Assembly (NCBI RefSeq): GCF_022808855.1
Contig: NZ_JAKZLF010000025.1
Coordinates: 1-64,000, forward strand
Source of the DNA: Anaeromyxobacter soli
GTDB taxonomy: Bacteria; Myxococcota; Myxococcia; Myxococcales; Anaeromyxobacteraceae
Direction: 5' to 3'
Length of the DNA stretch: 64,000 nucleotides
Shown here: positions 38,661 to 45,585 of the stretch, one piece after another
How the letters are laid out: every line of letters begins with the position of its first letter
Position numbering within the stretch: the first letter of the stretch is position 1
Program-made: the position numbers and the translations under genes
The notes under the pieces: model-generated
Seen by the model: the letters and a program-made list of their open reading frames with translations, nothing else
Database searches by the model: none
Told to the model about the DNA's origin: nothing

Positions 38661-39626
38661 TCAAACCCGTCGTGCGATCGCGGGGGTGCGCGGCTCACGC
38701 GCGTCCAGGGCCGCGGTCGCGTCCGGGTCCCCCTGCTCCGGAACCATTTCGGCGACGCCGCACGGTGTTTCTTCGCCAGGAGGCAGGTCCTCGTCGCTCA
38801 CGGGCGGCGCGAACAGCTCGCCCTGCAGCGGCTCGAGGCCGAGCGCCTCACGCACGGGCTGGAAGGAGCGCCGGTGGACCGGGCAGGCGCCGAGCCGCCT
38901 GAGTGCCTCGAAGTGCTCGGCGGTCGGGTAGCCCTTGTGGCGGCAGAACCCGTAGCCCGGGTGGACGGCGTCGAGCTCGGTCATGAGCGCGTCGCGCGCG
39001 GTCTTCGCGAGGATGCTCGCCGCGGCGATGGTGAGCGAGAGCGCGTCGCCGTGGATGATGGGCGTCTGCGGGAGCGGGAGCTCGGGGAGCTTGCGGGCGT
39101 CGATGAGCACGTGCCCGGGGAGGGTCGCGAGCCCCTGCACGGCGCGCGTGAGGGCGAGCAAGCCGGCGCGGTAGATGTTGAGCCGGTCGATCTCCTCGAC
39201 CTCGGCGCGCGCCACGGCCCAGCAGATGGCGTTCGCGCGGATGTCCTCCGCGAGCCGCTCGCGCTCCCGCCGGTCGAGCTGCTTCGAGTCGTCGATGCCG
39301 CGCGGCCGGTAGTCGCGCGGGAGGATGCACGCGCCCGCCACCACCGGCCCCGCGAGCGGCGCCATGCCGGCCTCGTCCACGCCCGCGACCAGCGTGACGC
39401 CCCTGTCCCAGAGTTCCCCCTCGTAGCGCAGCAGATGCCGAAGGCGCTGTCCTTCCGCGCGGTTGGCGTGCCGACGCTTCAGGATCTGGCGGAGCACCTC
39501 GCGCGCGCCCGCCCGCGGGTCCACCGTGAGGGCCGCCTCGCACTCGGGCGAGAGGGCGCGGTTCCGGTCGAGGAACCGCTCGCGCAGCTCGGCCACGGAC
39601 ATCCGCGCGAGGTCTTCGGGGCGCAT
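38661..39626 (-). CDS. rnhB: Ribonuclease HII with N- and C-terminal extensions
   Basis: The catalytic domain (about residues 78-265) carries the RNase HII motifs: [15 protein letters not shown] with Asp-Glu, the Lys in [19 protein letters not shown], and [16 protein letters not shown]. It cleaves RNA in RNA-DNA hybrids and ribonucleotides in DNA. At 321 residues it is about 100 longer than typical. The first 75 residues form a separate helical segment ([18 protein letters not shown]...[10 protein letters not shown]), and the C-terminus ends in an acidic Pro-rich tail. It heads the pcnB-pyrH-frr block. Confidence 0.93.
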
Positions 39627-39636
39627 CGGGGCGAGT

Positions 39637-39726
39637 CTAGCGCCACCTCGTCGCGGCGCGAAGGGCGAACCACGCCGCGGTCCGCAGCGACGGGCCGAAG
39701 GCGTTCACCTCGACGAGCTCGACCGA
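39637..39726 (-). pseudogene. Possible C-terminal remnant of a native gene truncated at the island edge
   Basis: Upstream of rnhB on the minus strand a 29-residue open stretch with native G+C ([19 protein letters not shown]..., ending TRWR and a TAG) starts right after an in-frame stop at 39727-39729, where composition drops. No start codon exists in it. It looks like the end of a gene whose front was lost when the low-G+C segment arrived. I do not recognise the family; chance is possible. Confidence 0.35.
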
Positions 39727-39743
39727 TCAGCGACATTACCTGC

Positions 39744-39963
39744 TCAGGGTAACCACCCCGCGAGACCAAAGATGGACATGCCGATCATCAAGCAGCCCCC
39801 GGCTGCAACTAACAAGCACAATCCCCTGCCGATCTCTTTCGCCTAAACGAATCCCGAGCACCCAATTTTGGGAGTCGACAACGTGGTCGGCGAAGCGCCT
39901 GCGAAACAGTATCAACAATATGCCAATGACCAGGCCGGGCACCGATTGCAGCCACTCCGTCAT
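39744..39963 (-). pseudogene. Small two-helix membrane protein gene with a frameshift
   Basis: From an ATG at 39963 the reading frame gives VPGLVIGILLILFRRRFADH, a membrane helix with a basic flank, then NWVLGIRLGERDR. After that the same frame turns into non-protein-like sequence (SCSRGLLDDRHVHLWS). Skipping one base near 39820-39835 enters a frame encoding GLCLLVAAGGCLMIGMSIFG, a second clean membrane helix, and stops at 39744-39746. The simplest reading is a one-base insertion in a former two-helix protein, or a sequencing error. Function of the family is unknown. Confidence 0.5.
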
Positions 39964-40028
39964 GGCGCGTTACCTAGCTCACCGGAAGACCGGATCGGAA
40001 ATGCGTAGAACAGCGCCACACGACGACG

Positions 40029-40451
40029 TCACGGCGTACCCGTGACTGGAACGTACTTCACGTCCACGCGGCGGACCTTCGCCTCGTTCCGGAACAGGCG
40101 CAGGCGCGAATCGTAGTTGACCCTTAAGGTGTCGTCGGAGTCCCAGCGCACTCCGACCGTCAAACGTGCGCCCGTATCCCCGGCGTCCGCGATGAACGCG
40201 TTCCCCGGCTTGTCCCCCAGACGCTCGCCCACACTCAGGACGGATACCTGCACGGAATCGCTAACAGTCGCGCAACTTCTCCGAAACACGACCGCACGAC
40301 GTTGACCCGATGGTGCGACCATCTCTGAAATCACCTTCACATCGCACGGCCCGAAGCACCCACACCACAACGGAACAGCAGCGGCCACTGCAGTCCATTT
40401 CATACGCGCGAGCGCCCAGGCCAGCTTCTTCCCGGATCGACCTATCATCAT
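40029..40451 (-). CDS. Hypothetical lipoprotein, 140 aa
   Basis: The product has a basic n-region, a hydrophobic segment (WTAVAAAVPLWCGC) with a lipobox-like cysteine, and a mature part with repeated beta-strand patterns (SEMVAPSGQRRAVVFRR, VQVSVLSVGERLGDKPGNAFI, TVGVRWDSDDTLRVNYD). This resembles small envelope lipoproteins of unknown function found in many Proteobacteria. Its ATG overlaps the stop of the upstream gene in ATGA (40448-40451), which decides the start; an internal Met 16 residues later is an alternative. G+C is lower than in the flanks. Confidence 0.65.
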   Translation of the reverse strand: MMIGRSGKKLAWALARMKWTAVAAAVPLWCGCFGPCDVKVISEMVAPSGQRRAVVFRRSCATVSDSVQVSVLSVGERLGDKPGNAFIADAGDTGARLTVGVRWDSDDTLRVNYDSRLRLFRNEAKVRRVDVKYVPVTGTP

Positions 40452-40657
40452 CGGATCACCTCTCGCTCGGCTCGATCCCTCTCCACCTGCTCCTTCTCGA
40501 TCGCTACCAACGCAGCCGCGGCCTCCGTCTTTCCAAGCCGCTCGAGGTTTTCGGAGGCTCGCTCGACGGCAGCGGGAACCCTTATGTAACGCTCGGCGGC
40601 ATTCCTCTGCGAGTCGATCTTCTGGCGCTCGGTGGAGATTCTCAGCCAGATGGCCAC
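40448..40657 (-). CDS. Small charged helical protein, 69 aa
   Basis: A GTG at 40657 opens a frame for a product that is mostly one long, highly charged helix (TERQKIDSQRNAAERYI, AVERASENLERLGKTEAAAALVAIEKEQVERDRAERE), so a coiled coil is likely. The frame stays open further upstream without a clear start, and the protein may therefore be longer or be a truncated remnant. Its stop overlaps the start of the lipoprotein gene, suggesting coupled translation. Function unknown. Confidence 0.4.
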   Translation of the reverse strand: MAIWLRISTERQKIDSQRNAAERYIRVPAAVERASENLERLGKTEAAAALVAIEKEQVERDRAEREVIR

Positions 40658-40778
40658 GATCGCTTCATAGCTTCGAACCCAGAATACGATCCCGGGCTGA
40701 CGACCGCCGGAACGTGCTGCTGCGCACCCACATCTGGATGGTGAGGATCCGAGACGGCAAGCAGCGGGAACGGCGCGG

Positions 40779-41102
40779 TCATCCCCCGCTCTTGAGCTCG
40801 ATGCAGATGGTCTGCACTACCGTGCCGCCGACGTTCTCGACCGCGTGTGAGCCCACGGGAGCAGGGATCACCTGCCCGTCGGTGAGCGCCACGTCGACGA
40901 CCGAGCCGTCGAGGCTGGTAAGGCGCAGCGTACCCGGCTTGAGGATGTAGTTGATGTTCTCCGGGTTCCTATGCATGGCCACCCGGTCGCCGGGTTTGAC
41001 CGTTACCTTGAGCACACGGATCCGGTCGTTTTCGAAGATGACCTCGTGGATCTCCGGGGAGATCTTGACGATGTCGTCGATCGGGTCTGCCACGTCGTTC
41101 AC
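40779..41102 (-). CDS. Cupin-domain protein
   Basis: The 107-residue product is a single small cupin barrel: FENDRIRVLKVTVKPGDRVAMHRNPENINYIL is the first motif region (only one of the usual histidines is present, with Asn-Ile-Asn in place of His-x-His), and VIPAPVGSHAVENVGGT is the second with its His. The GTG start overlaps the stop of the DHFR-like gene in GTGA (41099-41102), so the two are coupled. It may bind a small metabolite or metal; no substrate can be named. Confidence 0.8.
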   Translation of the reverse strand: MNDVADPIDDIVKISPEIHEVIFENDRIRVLKVTVKPGDRVAMHRNPENINYILKPGTLRLTSLDGSVVDVALTDGQVIPAPVGSHAVENVGGTVVQTICIELKSGG

Positions 41103-41635
41103 GTGGAGTGGCTACGGCTTCGCGCGGCGACCCGATAGTGCAGCCGAATCGTGTCGTCATTCAGCTTTGCGCTGTCGATCAGGTGGAGCTTGTGGTCGTG
41201 CGCGACCCCTCTCAGCAGCGGTAGGGCCTCGCCACCAAAGAGCACCGGCTCCACCACCAGGATGATGTCGTTCACCAGCCCAGCATCGATGAACTGGCTC
41301 ATTGTGACCGTGCCCCCGACGATCACCGCCTCCGAGAACCCCTTCCCCTCGAGCATCGAGACGATCTCGTGGGGACGGGCGCTCGTGAACACGACGCTCG
41401 GGTTCGGGGTGGCCGCGCCCGCGTGGCTCGTGAGCACCACCACGAGGCTCCCCTCGCTCAGCGGAAGATGGTCCGGCGCGAGGATGTCGTACGTCTTCCT
41501 GCCCATGATGACGGCTTTCGTCCGGCAGGTCTCGTAGAACCCCCGACCGTACTCTGGAGACAGCCAGTCGGGGACGTTGCGGGCATTTGAGATGAAGCCG
41601 TTCGCCGAGGTGGCGATGTAGATGGCGATGTTCAT
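41099..41635 (-). CDS. Dihydrofolate reductase-like (RibD C-terminal family) protein
   Basis: The 178-residue product starts with MNIAIYIATSANGFISN, contains AVIMGRKTYDIL, the NADPH-contacting GRKTY pattern, and later AVIVGGTVTMSQFIDAGLVNDIILVVEPVLFGGE, typical of the RibD C-terminal/DHFR-like family (YwjB/YyaP type). These are NADPH-dependent reductases of unknown physiological substrate, often carried in accessory DNA. It is coupled to the cupin gene and lies within the low-G+C segment. Confidence 0.87.
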   Translation of the reverse strand: MNIAIYIATSANGFISNARNVPDWLSPEYGRGFYETCRTKAVIMGRKTYDILAPDHLPLSEGSLVVVLTSHAGAATPNPSVVFTSARPHEIVSMLEGKGFSEAVIVGGTVTMSQFIDAGLVNDIILVVEPVLFGGEALPLLRGVAHDHKLHLIDSAKLNDDTIRLHYRVAARSRSHST

Positions 41636-41697
41636 GTCGTTGTGGGGATCACCTGGCCGCCACACGGGGTCCGTGCATCGCATACACTCTCGAGCGC

Positions 41698-42135
41698 TCA
41701 GCCGAGTTCTTCGGCGAGCCCGATGAGAAGTCCTTCGGGCCCGCGTATGTAGGCGAGCCGATACGTGTCTTCGTACTGGACCACGTCGCCGACGAGCTCT
41801 GCGCCGCGCTTGCGGAGCCGGGTGATCGTATCGTCGAGGTCCTCGACGGCGAACATGACACGTAGGTAACCGAAAGCGTTCACTGGGGCGTTCCGGTGAT
41901 CGGCGACCACACGGGGCGTGAGAAATCGAGACAGCTCGAGCCGGCCGTGGCCGTCCGGCGTGCGCATCATGGCGATCTCGACGCGCTGGTCGCGCAACCC
42001 GGTAACGCGCCCCGCCCACTCTCCTTCGATCGTGGCTCGTCCTTCGAGCTTCAGGCCCAGCTCACCAAAGAACGAGATCGCGGTATCGAGCGACTCCACC
42101 ACGATCCCGACGTTGTCCATGCGCTTGACCGTCAT
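41698..42135 (-). CDS. VOC (glyoxalase/bleomycin-resistance) family protein
   Basis: The product of about 145 residues shows the paired beta-alpha-beta-beta-beta modules of the VOC superfamily: MDNVGIVVESLDTAISFFGELGL at the start, then RVEIAMMRTPDGHGRLELSRF, and a second module VMFAVEDLDDTITRLRKRGAELVGDVVQYEDTYRLAYIRGPEG. The last stretch carries a typical late Glu-Gly. Metal ligands are only partly evident, so enzyme or binding function is open. The ATG at 42135 matches the family start; 42180 would add 15 residues. It is in the low-G+C segment. Confidence 0.85.
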   Translation of the reverse strand: MTVKRMDNVGIVVESLDTAISFFGELGLKLEGRATIEGEWAGRVTGLRDQRVEIAMMRTPDGHGRLELSRFLTPRVVADHRNAPVNAFGYLRVMFAVEDLDDTITRLRKRGAELVGDVVQYEDTYRLAYIRGPEGLLIGLAEELG

Positions 42136-42300
42136 CGACGCTATGCCTTCCAGTACCTGTATCCGCCTCGTGCTCGCCATCCGTTGACTTAGGAGGTCAC
42201 GCCTCGTGATGCACGGTCTCGCGCGGGTCAGCGTAGCGAGCCGGAGTGGCTCGGATGTCGCGAATTCGTGGCCGGCGCTAAGCGGCTAATCAGGCATGAC

Positions 42301-42687
42301 ATGACAACACCGAGAACCTACAGCGCCAGTTGCCATTGTGGTGCCGTCCGTTTCACGTTCACGTGCGAGGAGATCACGAGCGGCCGAAGGTGCAACTGCT
42401 CCATCTGCATCCGCAAGGGGGCGGTCATGTCCTCGAACTATTTCCGCCCATCGGATGTCGACGTGGAAGGTAAAGAGCACTTGGCCCTCTACCAGTTCGG
42501 GGACAAGGCCATGAACCACTTCTTCTGCCGCACCTGCGGCATATCTCCGTTCAGCACGGTGGCGTCCGTACCACCCGACTACCAAGGACCCGCAAGGCTG
42601 GGGGACTATCGGGTCAACCTCGGCTGCGTTCATGACCTCGATGTTCTCTCCCTAGAAGTCCAGGTCATCAACGGGAAGGCGCTCTAG
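42301..42687 (+). CDS. GFA-family (glutathione-dependent formaldehyde-activating enzyme-like) zinc protein
   Basis: The 128-residue protein carries the zinc-binding cysteine sets of the GFA family: SASCHCGAVRF, RRCNCSICIRKG and HFFCRTCGISPF. Members bind glutathione adducts or act as small carbon-sulfur lyases; most are uncharacterised. The ATG at 42301 is the family start; a GTG at 42268 is a weaker alternative. It is the only plus-strand gene in the low-G+C segment, divergent from the VOC gene. Confidence 0.88.
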   Translation: MTTPRTYSASCHCGAVRFTFTCEEITSGRRCNCSICIRKGAVMSSNYFRPSDVDVEGKEHLALYQFGDKAMNHFFCRTCGISPFSTVASVPPDYQGPARLGDYRVNLGCVHDLDVLSLEVQVINGKAL

Positions 42688-42708
42688 AGCGACGGCCGGA
42701 ACATTCCT

Positions 42709-42765
42709 GATGGCACGTGGGAGCTGATCGCCCCGCTCCTTCCGGCTCGCCGTAGCGAGCCAAGC
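42709..42765 (+). pseudogene. Possible remnant of an IS5-family transposase N-terminus
   Basis: The plus strand here encodes DGTWELIAPLLPARRSEPS. The W-x-L-I-x-P-L-L-P stretch is the typical beginning of IS5/DUF4096 transposases. There is no start codon and the rest of the frame shows no transposase character, so at best a short scrap survives. The fragment lies at the right edge of the low-G+C segment. Confidence 0.3.
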
Positions 42766-42890
42766 GCCCACGTCTCGGTGGCGCTCACGTCGCGAGGCGG
42801 AGAATTCGGGTCGAGGTCCGCGGGAGAACGATTCGAAATCGCAATCTGGCGCGCGGGTGCGGTTCCTCGTCCCGAAGCCGGCCGTGACCC

Positions 42891-43718
42891 TCACCGCTGG
42901 CAGCGCGGACAGTAGAACGTCGAGCGCTGTGCCTGCACGATGCGGACGATCTCCGCCCGCCGGCAGCGCGGGCAGCGCTCGCCCTCGCGCGCGTAGACGA
43001 GGAACGGGTTCTCCGCCCCCTCCTCCACGTAGGTGATCTCAGGGCCCTCCTCGCGCGCGATGGTCTCCTTCACTGTCGCGAGGATCCCGTCGGCGAGCCG
43101 TCGAACCTCGGCGCGCGTGAGCGAGCGGGCCTGCCGGCGTGGATCGATCTTCGCGCGGAAGAGCGACTCGCTCGCGAGGATGTTGCCGACGCCGGGGAGG
43201 AGCGCCTGGTCCAGGATGCGGACCTTCACGGGGAGCTTCGAGCGGCCGAGCGAGTTCGCGAGCCGCTCGAGATCGATGCCCTGCTCCAGCGGATCGGGCC
43301 CGAGCTCGGCGATCTCGGGCACCTCCTCGAAGCGCGCGCCCGGCACGACCCGCAGCCGGCCGAAGAGCCGCATGTCGTCGAAGTGCAGCACGGCGCCGTC
43401 GTCGAGGTGGAAACGCGCGCGGGAGAAGCGGGTCGGGACGCCGTCGCCGTCGCGGCGGAGCCACTTGCCCGTCATGCCGAGGTGGGCGAGGAGGCCGACC
43501 GGCGCGCCGTCCTTCTCGAGCGTGACGAGGAGCTGCTTGCCGATCCGGCGGATCGAACCGAAGCGCGCGCCCTCGAGGCCGCGCGCGAACGCGGCCGGCC
43601 TCGCGGGCCGGAAGACGTAGCGCGCCTTCGGGTCAGGCTCGATCCGCTCGATGCGCCGGCCCTTCGTCCAGCGGCGGAGATTACGCGCGGCGATCTCGAC
43701 CTCGGGAAGCTCAGGCAC
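42891..43718 (-). CDS. mutM: Formamidopyrimidine-DNA glycosylase
   Basis: The 275-residue product begins PELPEVEIAARNLRRW: the Pro2 nucleophile and Glu3 of the Fpg/Nei family are in place. It contains LLAHLGMTGKWLRR, LPGVGNILASESLFRAKIDP (helix-two-turn-helix) and ends in a C4 zinc finger (CPRCRRAEIVRIV...FYCPRCQR). It removes 8-oxoguanine and formamidopyrimidines from DNA. The GTG at 43718 places Pro directly after the initiator. It is the third gene of a bcp-rsmB-mutM run, 53 bases after rsmB. Confidence 0.96.
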   Translation of the reverse strand: MPELPEVEIAARNLRRWTKGRRIERIEPDPKARYVFRPARPAAFARGLEGARFGSIRRIGKQLLVTLEKDGAPVGLLAHLGMTGKWLRRDGDGVPTRFSRARFHLDDGAVLHFDDMRLFGRLRVVPGARFEEVPEIAELGPDPLEQGIDLERLANSLGRSKLPVKVRILDQALLPGVGNILASESLFRAKIDPRRQARSLTRAEVRRLADGILATVKETIAREEGPEITYVEEGAENPFLVYAREGERCPRCRRAEIVRIVQAQRSTFYCPRCQR

Positions 43719-45129: not shown

Positions 45130-45585
45130 TTACAGGCTCTCGAGCACCTCCGCCACGTGCCCCTCCACCTTCACCTTCGGGAAGACGTGCTCGACCTTGC
45201 CGTCCGGGCCGACGAGCACGGTCGTCCGCTCGGTCCCCATCGTCTTCTTCCCGTACATGTTCTTCTCCTTCCAGACGCCCCAGGCCTGCATCACCTCGGC
45301 GCCCGGGTCGGAGAGGAGCGGGAACGGCAGGTCGTACTTCTCCTTGAACTTCTTCTGCGCGGCGGGGGTGTCCTTCGAGATCCCCACCACCGCGACCTTC
45401 TTCCTCTTGAACGCGTCGACTTCGTCACGGAAGTCGCAGGCCTCCCGCGTTCAACCGGGGGTGTCGGCCTTCGGGTAGAAGAACACGACGACGCGCTTCC
45501 CGGCGAAGTCGGAGAGCTTCACCTCGTTCCCCTCCTCGTCCGGCAGCGCGAACTGCGGGGCCTTCTGGCCCACCTCGAGCGCCAT
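45130..45585 (-). CDS. bcp: Selenocysteine-containing peroxiredoxin, Bcp/PrxQ family (in-frame UGA)
   Basis: From an ATG at 45585 behind GAGGAGG, an open frame of 151 codons runs to TAA with one interruption: TGA at 45451-45453 (codon 45). Both sides match Bcp/PrxQ throughout: KAPQFALPDEEG, VVVFFYPKADTPG, then the TGA, then TREACDFRDEV, VVGISKDTPAAQKKF and WGVWKEKNMYGKK. In E. coli Bcp the residue after TPG is the peroxidatic cysteine, so the UGA falls exactly on the catalytic position. The resolving Cys50 (U-x4-C) is kept. Reading frame, length and conservation are intact after the UGA, which argues against a pseudogene. A SECIS-like hairpin follows immediately. Bcp enzymes reduce peroxides with thiol donors such as thioredoxin. 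Standard calling would report only an 86-residue downstream piece from 45390. Confidence 0.88.
45407..45454 (-). promoter_or_regulatory. SECIS-like hairpin directly downstream of the bcp UGA
   Basis: Reading the minus strand 5' to 3', UUGAACGCG (45454-45446, containing the UGA) pairs perfectly over 9 bp with CGCGUUCAA (45415-45407). Inside, CGACUUC (45436-45430) pairs perfectly over 7 bp with GAAGUCG (45423-45417) around the loop CGUGAC (45429-45424). Between the stems lie 9 unpaired bases on the 5' side and one on the 3' side. The loop begins 21 bases after the UGA and has G as its second base. Both agree with bacterial SECIS rules as I recall them (apical loop about 16-37 bases from UGA, G among the first two loop bases). 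It would recruit SelB to insert selenocysteine. Confidence 0.8.

Follow-up and report, generated by a model that had tools for sequence, protein, structure and literature searches.

The closest described counterpart of the locus considered here is the genomic hot spot, a site that tolerates integration and at which accessory genes turn over. The locus lies between rnhB and mutM in Anaeromyxobacter soli, at positions 39627-42890 of the first 64,000 nucleotides of contig NZ_JAKZLF010000025.1 (assembly GCF_022808855.1; this whole analysed stretch is called the window below); the host genome comprises 5.3 Mb in 80 contigs. As in a hot spot, the same core genes flank differing inserts in sister genomes, the content is a mosaic that includes broken leftovers, and the G+C content is low. 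On the other hand, neither an integrase nor an attachment site or tRNA is present at the junctions (within the window, tRNAs occur at 2853 and 28116). The inserts are small (2-6 kb) and belong to one clade of three species, with further inserts in the genera of genomes G009 and G011. Among the papers listed in literature searches, none concerns this locus by its title.

The usual arrangement is a close same-strand row rsmB-mutM-rnhB, mostly extended by pcnB. Distances between rnhB and mutM were measured in eight congeners, which together with the window's own genome (G000) make up a genus sample of nine Anaeromyxobacter genomes, and in seven genomes from other genera of the family (34 relatives have an rnhB match; the seven were picked without a written selection rule). 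Taken from tblastn edges, and hence possibly off by some bases, the gap amounts to 13, 13, 13, 50, about 270, 622, 2188 and 6068 bp in the congeners and to 39, 63, 64, 74, 86, 1944 and 4239 bp in the other genera, where the two kilobase inserts are those of G009 and G011. In nine of the 15 relatives the gap is shorter than 100 bp, two have about 270 and 620 bp, and four have 1.9-6.1 kb. Among the congeners, kilobase inserts, one of 2.2 and one of 6.1 kb, occur only in the nearest relatives, G003 and G007, and their content is largely different. A tree built from rnhB, mutM and rsmB sets G000, G003 and G007 apart from the rest (bootstrap 100; FastTree 1.000). Since rnhB and mutM are tightly spaced in six of eight congeners and kilobase inserts occur only in the two nearest ones, the segment is an insertion specific to this lineage and interrupts a row of genes that is otherwise compact. 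This comparison had been proposed in an earlier reading of the window made from its letters alone (hereafter the sequence-only reading). The segment is missing in six of the eight congeners (gap of 13-622 bp) and partly shared, with mostly other content, in the remaining two; the same genes in the same place were thus not found in all close relatives.

The same reading had noted a low G+C content between rnhB and mutM and had suggested profiling of G+C and tetranucleotides, and both profiles bear it out. The G+C content of 39627-42890 is 62.9% against a background mean of 74.2% (sd 2.2), the background being 20 stretches of 20 kb taken at contig starts of the same genome (400 kb of 5.3 Mb). 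Windows of equal length with a G+C content as low were absent among 420 overlapping and 120 non-overlapping ones, and none of the 120 was as extreme in tetranucleotide distance or as low in Markov-corrected tetranucleotide correlation. GC3 is 64-87% in the seven open reading frames (ORFs) of the segment, compared with 92-97% in pcnB, rnhB, mutM and rsmB.

In all likelihood, the segment is an accessory patchwork specific to one Anaeromyxobacter clade that accumulated between mutM and rnhB. The following features make up the segment and its borders (E-values for Pfam and PDB matches):

38661-39626, minus strand: rnhB (ribonuclease HII), left flank; Pfam RNase_HII 1.1e-37; matched in 35 of 41 genomes, its own included
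39627-39687, no strand: old upstream flank of rnhB; about 84% over 61 bp to the flank of the duplicated rnhB start in G003
39736-39963, minus strand: 75-aa ORF of no known family; GC3 64%
40029-40451, minus strand: 140-aa probable lipoprotein of an uncharacterised family; full relative at the same site in G003, fragment in G007
40448-40657, minus strand: 69-aa ORF, remaining C-terminal part of a truncated HEAT-repeat gene, by tblastn to G003 and G007
40779-41102, minus strand: small cupin-like gene with GTG start; Cupin_2 6.2e-05
41099-41635, minus strand: RibD/DHFR-like reductase gene; RibD_C 2.2e-11, DHFR_1 1.1e-07, PDB 1cz3 1.6e-16
41698-42135, minus strand: VOC (glyoxalase-family) gene; Glyoxalase 1.4e-09, PDB 1ss4 1.9e-69
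42301-42687, plus strand: GFA-family gene, 128 aa, the sole plus-strand gene of the segment; GFA 6.3e-12
42749-42819, no strand: older non-coding patch; matches part of the G003 insert at 86% over 71 columns
42891-43718, minus strand: mutM (formamidopyrimidine-DNA glycosylase), right flank; Fapy_DNA_glyco 3.7e-28, H2TH 2.3e-21

Conserved sequence reaches up to about 39687 on the left and continues from the mutM stop codon onward on the right. Two pairs overlap by 4 bases, namely the cupin start with the RibD stop and the lipoprotein gene with the 69-aa ORF. The gene calls of the sequence-only reading hold for the RibD/DHFR-like, VOC and GFA genes, which score above their Pfam cut-offs (44.4 vs 24.1, 38.8 vs 20.6 and 46 vs 24.3 bits, respectively), and less well for the cupin, which with 23.1 bits against a curated Cupin_2 cut-off of 27.2 shows a resemblance only. 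Its suggestion of broken genes at the left and perhaps the right edge needs correction: the clearly broken gene, the 69-aa ORF then described as helical (40448-40657), is internal, and the signal of a possible remnant of rnhB on the right is weak, with 8 of 500 shuffles scoring equally (shuffles in this test and in the attC scan described below keep dinucleotides only on average). The 75-aa ORF is without a match in Pfam, PHROGs, NCBIfam or PADLOC and may be non-genic.

The lipoprotein and the HEAT remnant are found at the same site in the two nearest relatives and therefore form the older component of the segment. The 69-aa ORF shares 84% identity with G003 (over 37 aa) and 71% with G007 (over 24 aa), and the HEAT_2 domain is found in its longer relatives, that of G003 scoring below the cut-off. 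In the G007 insert, a HEAT-repeat gene of 471 aa precedes a fragment of the lipoprotein gene; in the G003 insert, the HEAT gene is shorter (232 aa) and the lipoprotein gene has a full-length counterpart. A search of the nine genus genomes with the HEAT protein of G007 yields matches at E<=1e-8 in G003 and G007 only. Relatives of the lipoprotein occur at E<=1e-5 in six of 195 Myxococcota genomes; this phylum sample includes the window's own genome, not all of its members are complete (149 reach 90% or more), and here as elsewhere absence of a gene is judged by an E-value cut-off. A solved relative of the 140-aa lipoprotein was not detectable by sequence up to E=1, and its structure prediction from single sequence was too poor for use (mean pLDDT 41.8). 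The lipoprotein and HEAT part either predates the split of G000, G003 and G007 or was exchanged among them.

The site in G003 also bears an old tandem duplication beside rnhB (L032 3190-5405 and 5414-7177). 230 bp of the rnhB start plus the upstream flank are repeated 2.2 kb away (81.5% identity in 276 columns), each copy with a lipoprotein-like stretch and a 91-bp repeat behind it. The rnhB flank of G000 corresponds to the flank of the second copy, and the duplicated rnhB piece has an internal stop. Furthermore, the G003 insert holds a gene for a Y1-type transposase (IS200-like, just below the Pfam cut-off; L032:7280-8164), of a kind often named RAYT. Relatives of this gene are present in all nine genus genomes. 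A piece of 95 bp is 100% identical in the G007 insert (G007:C1:351482-351576, in L033), whereas the shared HEAT sequence next to it is only about 79% identical between G003 and G007; judged by this difference in identity, the piece points to a recent exchange or insertion.

Together with the sharp step in composition, the transposase gene of the G003 insert and its identical 95-bp piece in G007 would suit one mobile element, be it a genomic island, transposon, prophage or plasmid fragment, that inserted in a single step. We nevertheless regard such an event as improbable. An integrase, transposase or phage structural gene was not found in the segment with Pfam, PHROGs and NCBIfam, the two PHROGs matches being just a general dihydrofolate-reductase family for RibD and a weakly matching family of unknown function for VOC. 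No second copy is apparent in the window's own genome among the 40 of 232 candidates that were scored, and the sole matching phage record and the 15 of 176 plasmid records listed align only over the VOC gene. Part of the content is, moreover, older and shared with relatives. That the segment was acquired as a single piece is contradicted by the age of the lipoprotein/HEAT part, shared at the site, and by the separate distributions of the other genes. Apart from the window's own, none of 119 loci examined, which span only some kb each, combines at least two of the four genes for cupin, RibD, VOC and GFA. The VOC, GFA, RibD and cupin genes thus appear to have separate histories, which makes the segment a patchwork.

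The VOC gene has the clearest outside connection. At E<=1e-20 it has relatives in 16 of the 195 Myxococcota genomes, its own included, and no match in the eight congeners. The best relative, in G066, belongs to another family of the order and is 88% identical in protein and 90% in DNA over 454 bp; rnhB in three genomes of that family is just 57-58% identical. The 10.8-kb contig of G066 that carries it contains none of the other segment genes. Plasmid relatives with about 76-81% identity are rhizobial among the best 20 of 199 records, and one further plasmid record, outside these 20, falls into the 90-95% band. The ORF is open to 42180; homology starts near an internal ATG at 42135, which is probably the true start because relatives begin at residue 11-16. 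PDB entry 1ss4, a glyoxalase family protein, aligns without gaps from residue 14 to the end (E 1.9e-69). It stems from Bacillus cereus, which belongs to a different phylum.

The GFA gene, in turn, occurs at 91-92% DNA identity in four other places, two in G003 and one each in G006 and G007. Its product matches the family above the cut-off and possesses the cysteine motifs CHCG, CNCSIC and CRTCG; the family name is no evidence of formaldehyde activity. The start at 42301 is probably correct, as it agrees with the copies elsewhere. Homology of the window gene with the other copies spans at most 42286-42692. Across the five contexts (L057, L058, L059, L060 and the window) it ends no farther than about 5-15 bp from the ORF ends in most pairs, and about 5-10 bp past the stop codon. 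When the 15-16 kb around these places are compared pairwise, only the GFA unit aligns, plus a short repeat of about 60 bp common to two of them; L058 and L060 share 549 bp at 97.8%. An 11-bp direct repeat flanks the GFA gene of the window, is lacking at the other copies and was equalled in length in 5 of 300 shuffles that keep base composition only. One way to read this is that GFA travels as a gene-sized mobile unit of about 400 bp, from 2-15 bp before the start to 5-10 bp past the stop. At 91-98% identity the gene lies in five places of four Anaeromyxobacter genomes, with no recombinase, attC sites or shared flanks (the 549-bp pair aside). We attach very little probability to such a unit; if true, single genes would be moved by an unrecognised process, perhaps RNA- or transformation-mediated.

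Small, unrelated ORFs of low G+C content and separate distribution would also be expected of an integron cassette cluster without integrase (CALIN), into which genes are captured serially by attC recombination. A scan of 39427-43091 for R''/R' pairs of the attC type yielded none on either strand; shuffles average 0.24, so that the scan has low power. The 4-base overlaps of cupin with RibD and of the lipoprotein gene with the HEAT remnant leave no room for attC sites, and homology around GFA stops just where a cassette attC would sit. No integron integrase was present among the segment ORFs scanned with Pfam, a scan that did not extend to the rest of the genome. With attC-like pairs absent, genes overlapping and GFA homology ending where it does, integron cassettes were rejected as a candidate, and their involvement is highly unlikely.

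Less can be said about the origin of the RibD and cupin genes. The RibD/DHFR-like protein matches RibD C-terminal/DHFR-like reductases (PDB 1cz3, 3ky8, 2gd9) over nearly its whole length. At E<=1e-20 it has no match in the 194 other Myxococcota genomes; plasmid relatives are below 60% identity in all 61 records and at only about 30-32% in the best 15 of them. A role as drug-resistance DHFR was rejected, as the NCBIfam models for trimethoprim-resistance DHFR score far below their cut-offs. The closest relative of the cupin within the phylum is 35% identical.

Horizontal acquisition, the origin proposed by the sequence-only reading, accordingly stands in part: it is directly supported by the 90% DNA identity of VOC to G066 and by the four other places of GFA, while for RibD it rests on the lack of a match in the other genomes of the phylum. 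Kinship with distant organisms closer than the species tree would predict was seen for VOC and GFA, and not for RibD, the cupin, the lipoprotein and the 75-aa ORF. The converse would be that all these are old, vertically inherited genes with a low G+C content due to low expression or relaxed selection, which relatives have lost. The lipoprotein and HEAT parts, common to two congeners and low in GC3, would fit, as would distant RibD-like DNA in four of eight congeners. For VOC and GFA this explanation is already contradicted, by the identity of the former to a member of another family and by the differing places of the latter, and the gap between rnhB and mutM is small in six of eight congeners (<=622 bp) and shorter than 100 bp in five of seven genomes of other genera. 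We consider it distinctly improbable as an account of the segment.

Several observations weigh against the patchwork. Short DNA matches inside RibD, of 27-56 bp, are present in four of eight congeners and therefore hint at more distant members of the family there; RibD and cupin are without a named donor and might instead be ancient genes that disappeared from other lineages. In G063, a genome from a different family, a relative of the cupin (33%) adjoins rsmB tail to tail (L212, G063:C574, 6946-8617). This neighbourhood is probably a coincidence, and the cupin as an old resident of the site was rejected, the 11.6-kb contig of G063 being devoid of mutM and rnhB. G006, one of three congeners bearing GFA, has a listed contamination of 6%. 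The genus sample comprises nine genomes, and other strains of the same species might have an empty site. Finally, the entry route appears to have left no diagnostic trace, and the functions given here are deduced from family membership only.

Accumulation of the patchwork probably proceeded as follows. Genes of the HEAT-repeat and lipoprotein type would first have come to lie between mutM and rnhB, either in a common ancestor of G000, G003 and G007 or through exchange between these genomes. Later turnover at the site has involved deletion, the gain of further genes and tandem duplication, the last as observed in G003. G000 has lost the greater part of the HEAT gene and gained VOC and GFA from outside, and probably RibD and cupin as well. 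Taken-up DNA may have entered by illegitimate recombination or by recombination guided by homology or flanks, with no dedicated element involved.

Judged by family, the intact genes (VOC, the RibD/DHFR-type reductase, the small cupin-like gene and the zinc-binding GFA protein) likely encode small-molecule enzymes useful in some conditions. VOC, RibD and cupin run in the same direction with overlaps or short gaps and could form one transcript. Because every gene except GFA has the same orientation as rnhB, the latter may now be read from the insert. Predicted promoters and terminators in the segment did not exceed those in shuffles, and Rfam revealed no RNA element up to E=1 in 39400-43000. An anti-phage defence system was considered and rejected, as none of the seven proteins of the segment has a PADLOC match; a weak match to OloA (E 0.0012) was obtained for the G007 HEAT protein, whose remnant lies in the segment.

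A separate observation concerns a gene for a Bcp-type peroxiredoxin nearby (45130-45585, minus strand), which has an in-frame TGA (45451-45453) at the catalytic position (PG-U-T-R-E-A-C). Matches were found in 13 of 15 relatives' loci, 10 with TGA and 3 with TGC. A similar hairpin is predicted 3' of the TGA in nine of 11 TGA sequences, that of the window included; it has no match in Rfam, and the TGC sequences fold there too. The genome encodes SelB as well as tRNA-Sec, for which two places score above the cut-off. The peroxiredoxin is probably a selenoprotein, with TGA read as selenocysteine. A paper on bacterial selenoproteins (PMC1794560) reportedly contains the genus name Anaeromyxobacter.

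The locus is a fairly well-resolved example of how a tight row of core genes was opened and became a site of accessory turnover in a soil bacterium of high G+C content. It cautions that one segment of low G+C content need not correspond to one transfer event. Some genes of the segment were probably borrowed from other bacteria, while others are remnants of earlier insertions, as part of normal genome turnover. This is ordinary accessory turnover, and a wider consequence would arise only if mobility of GFA as a single gene holds.

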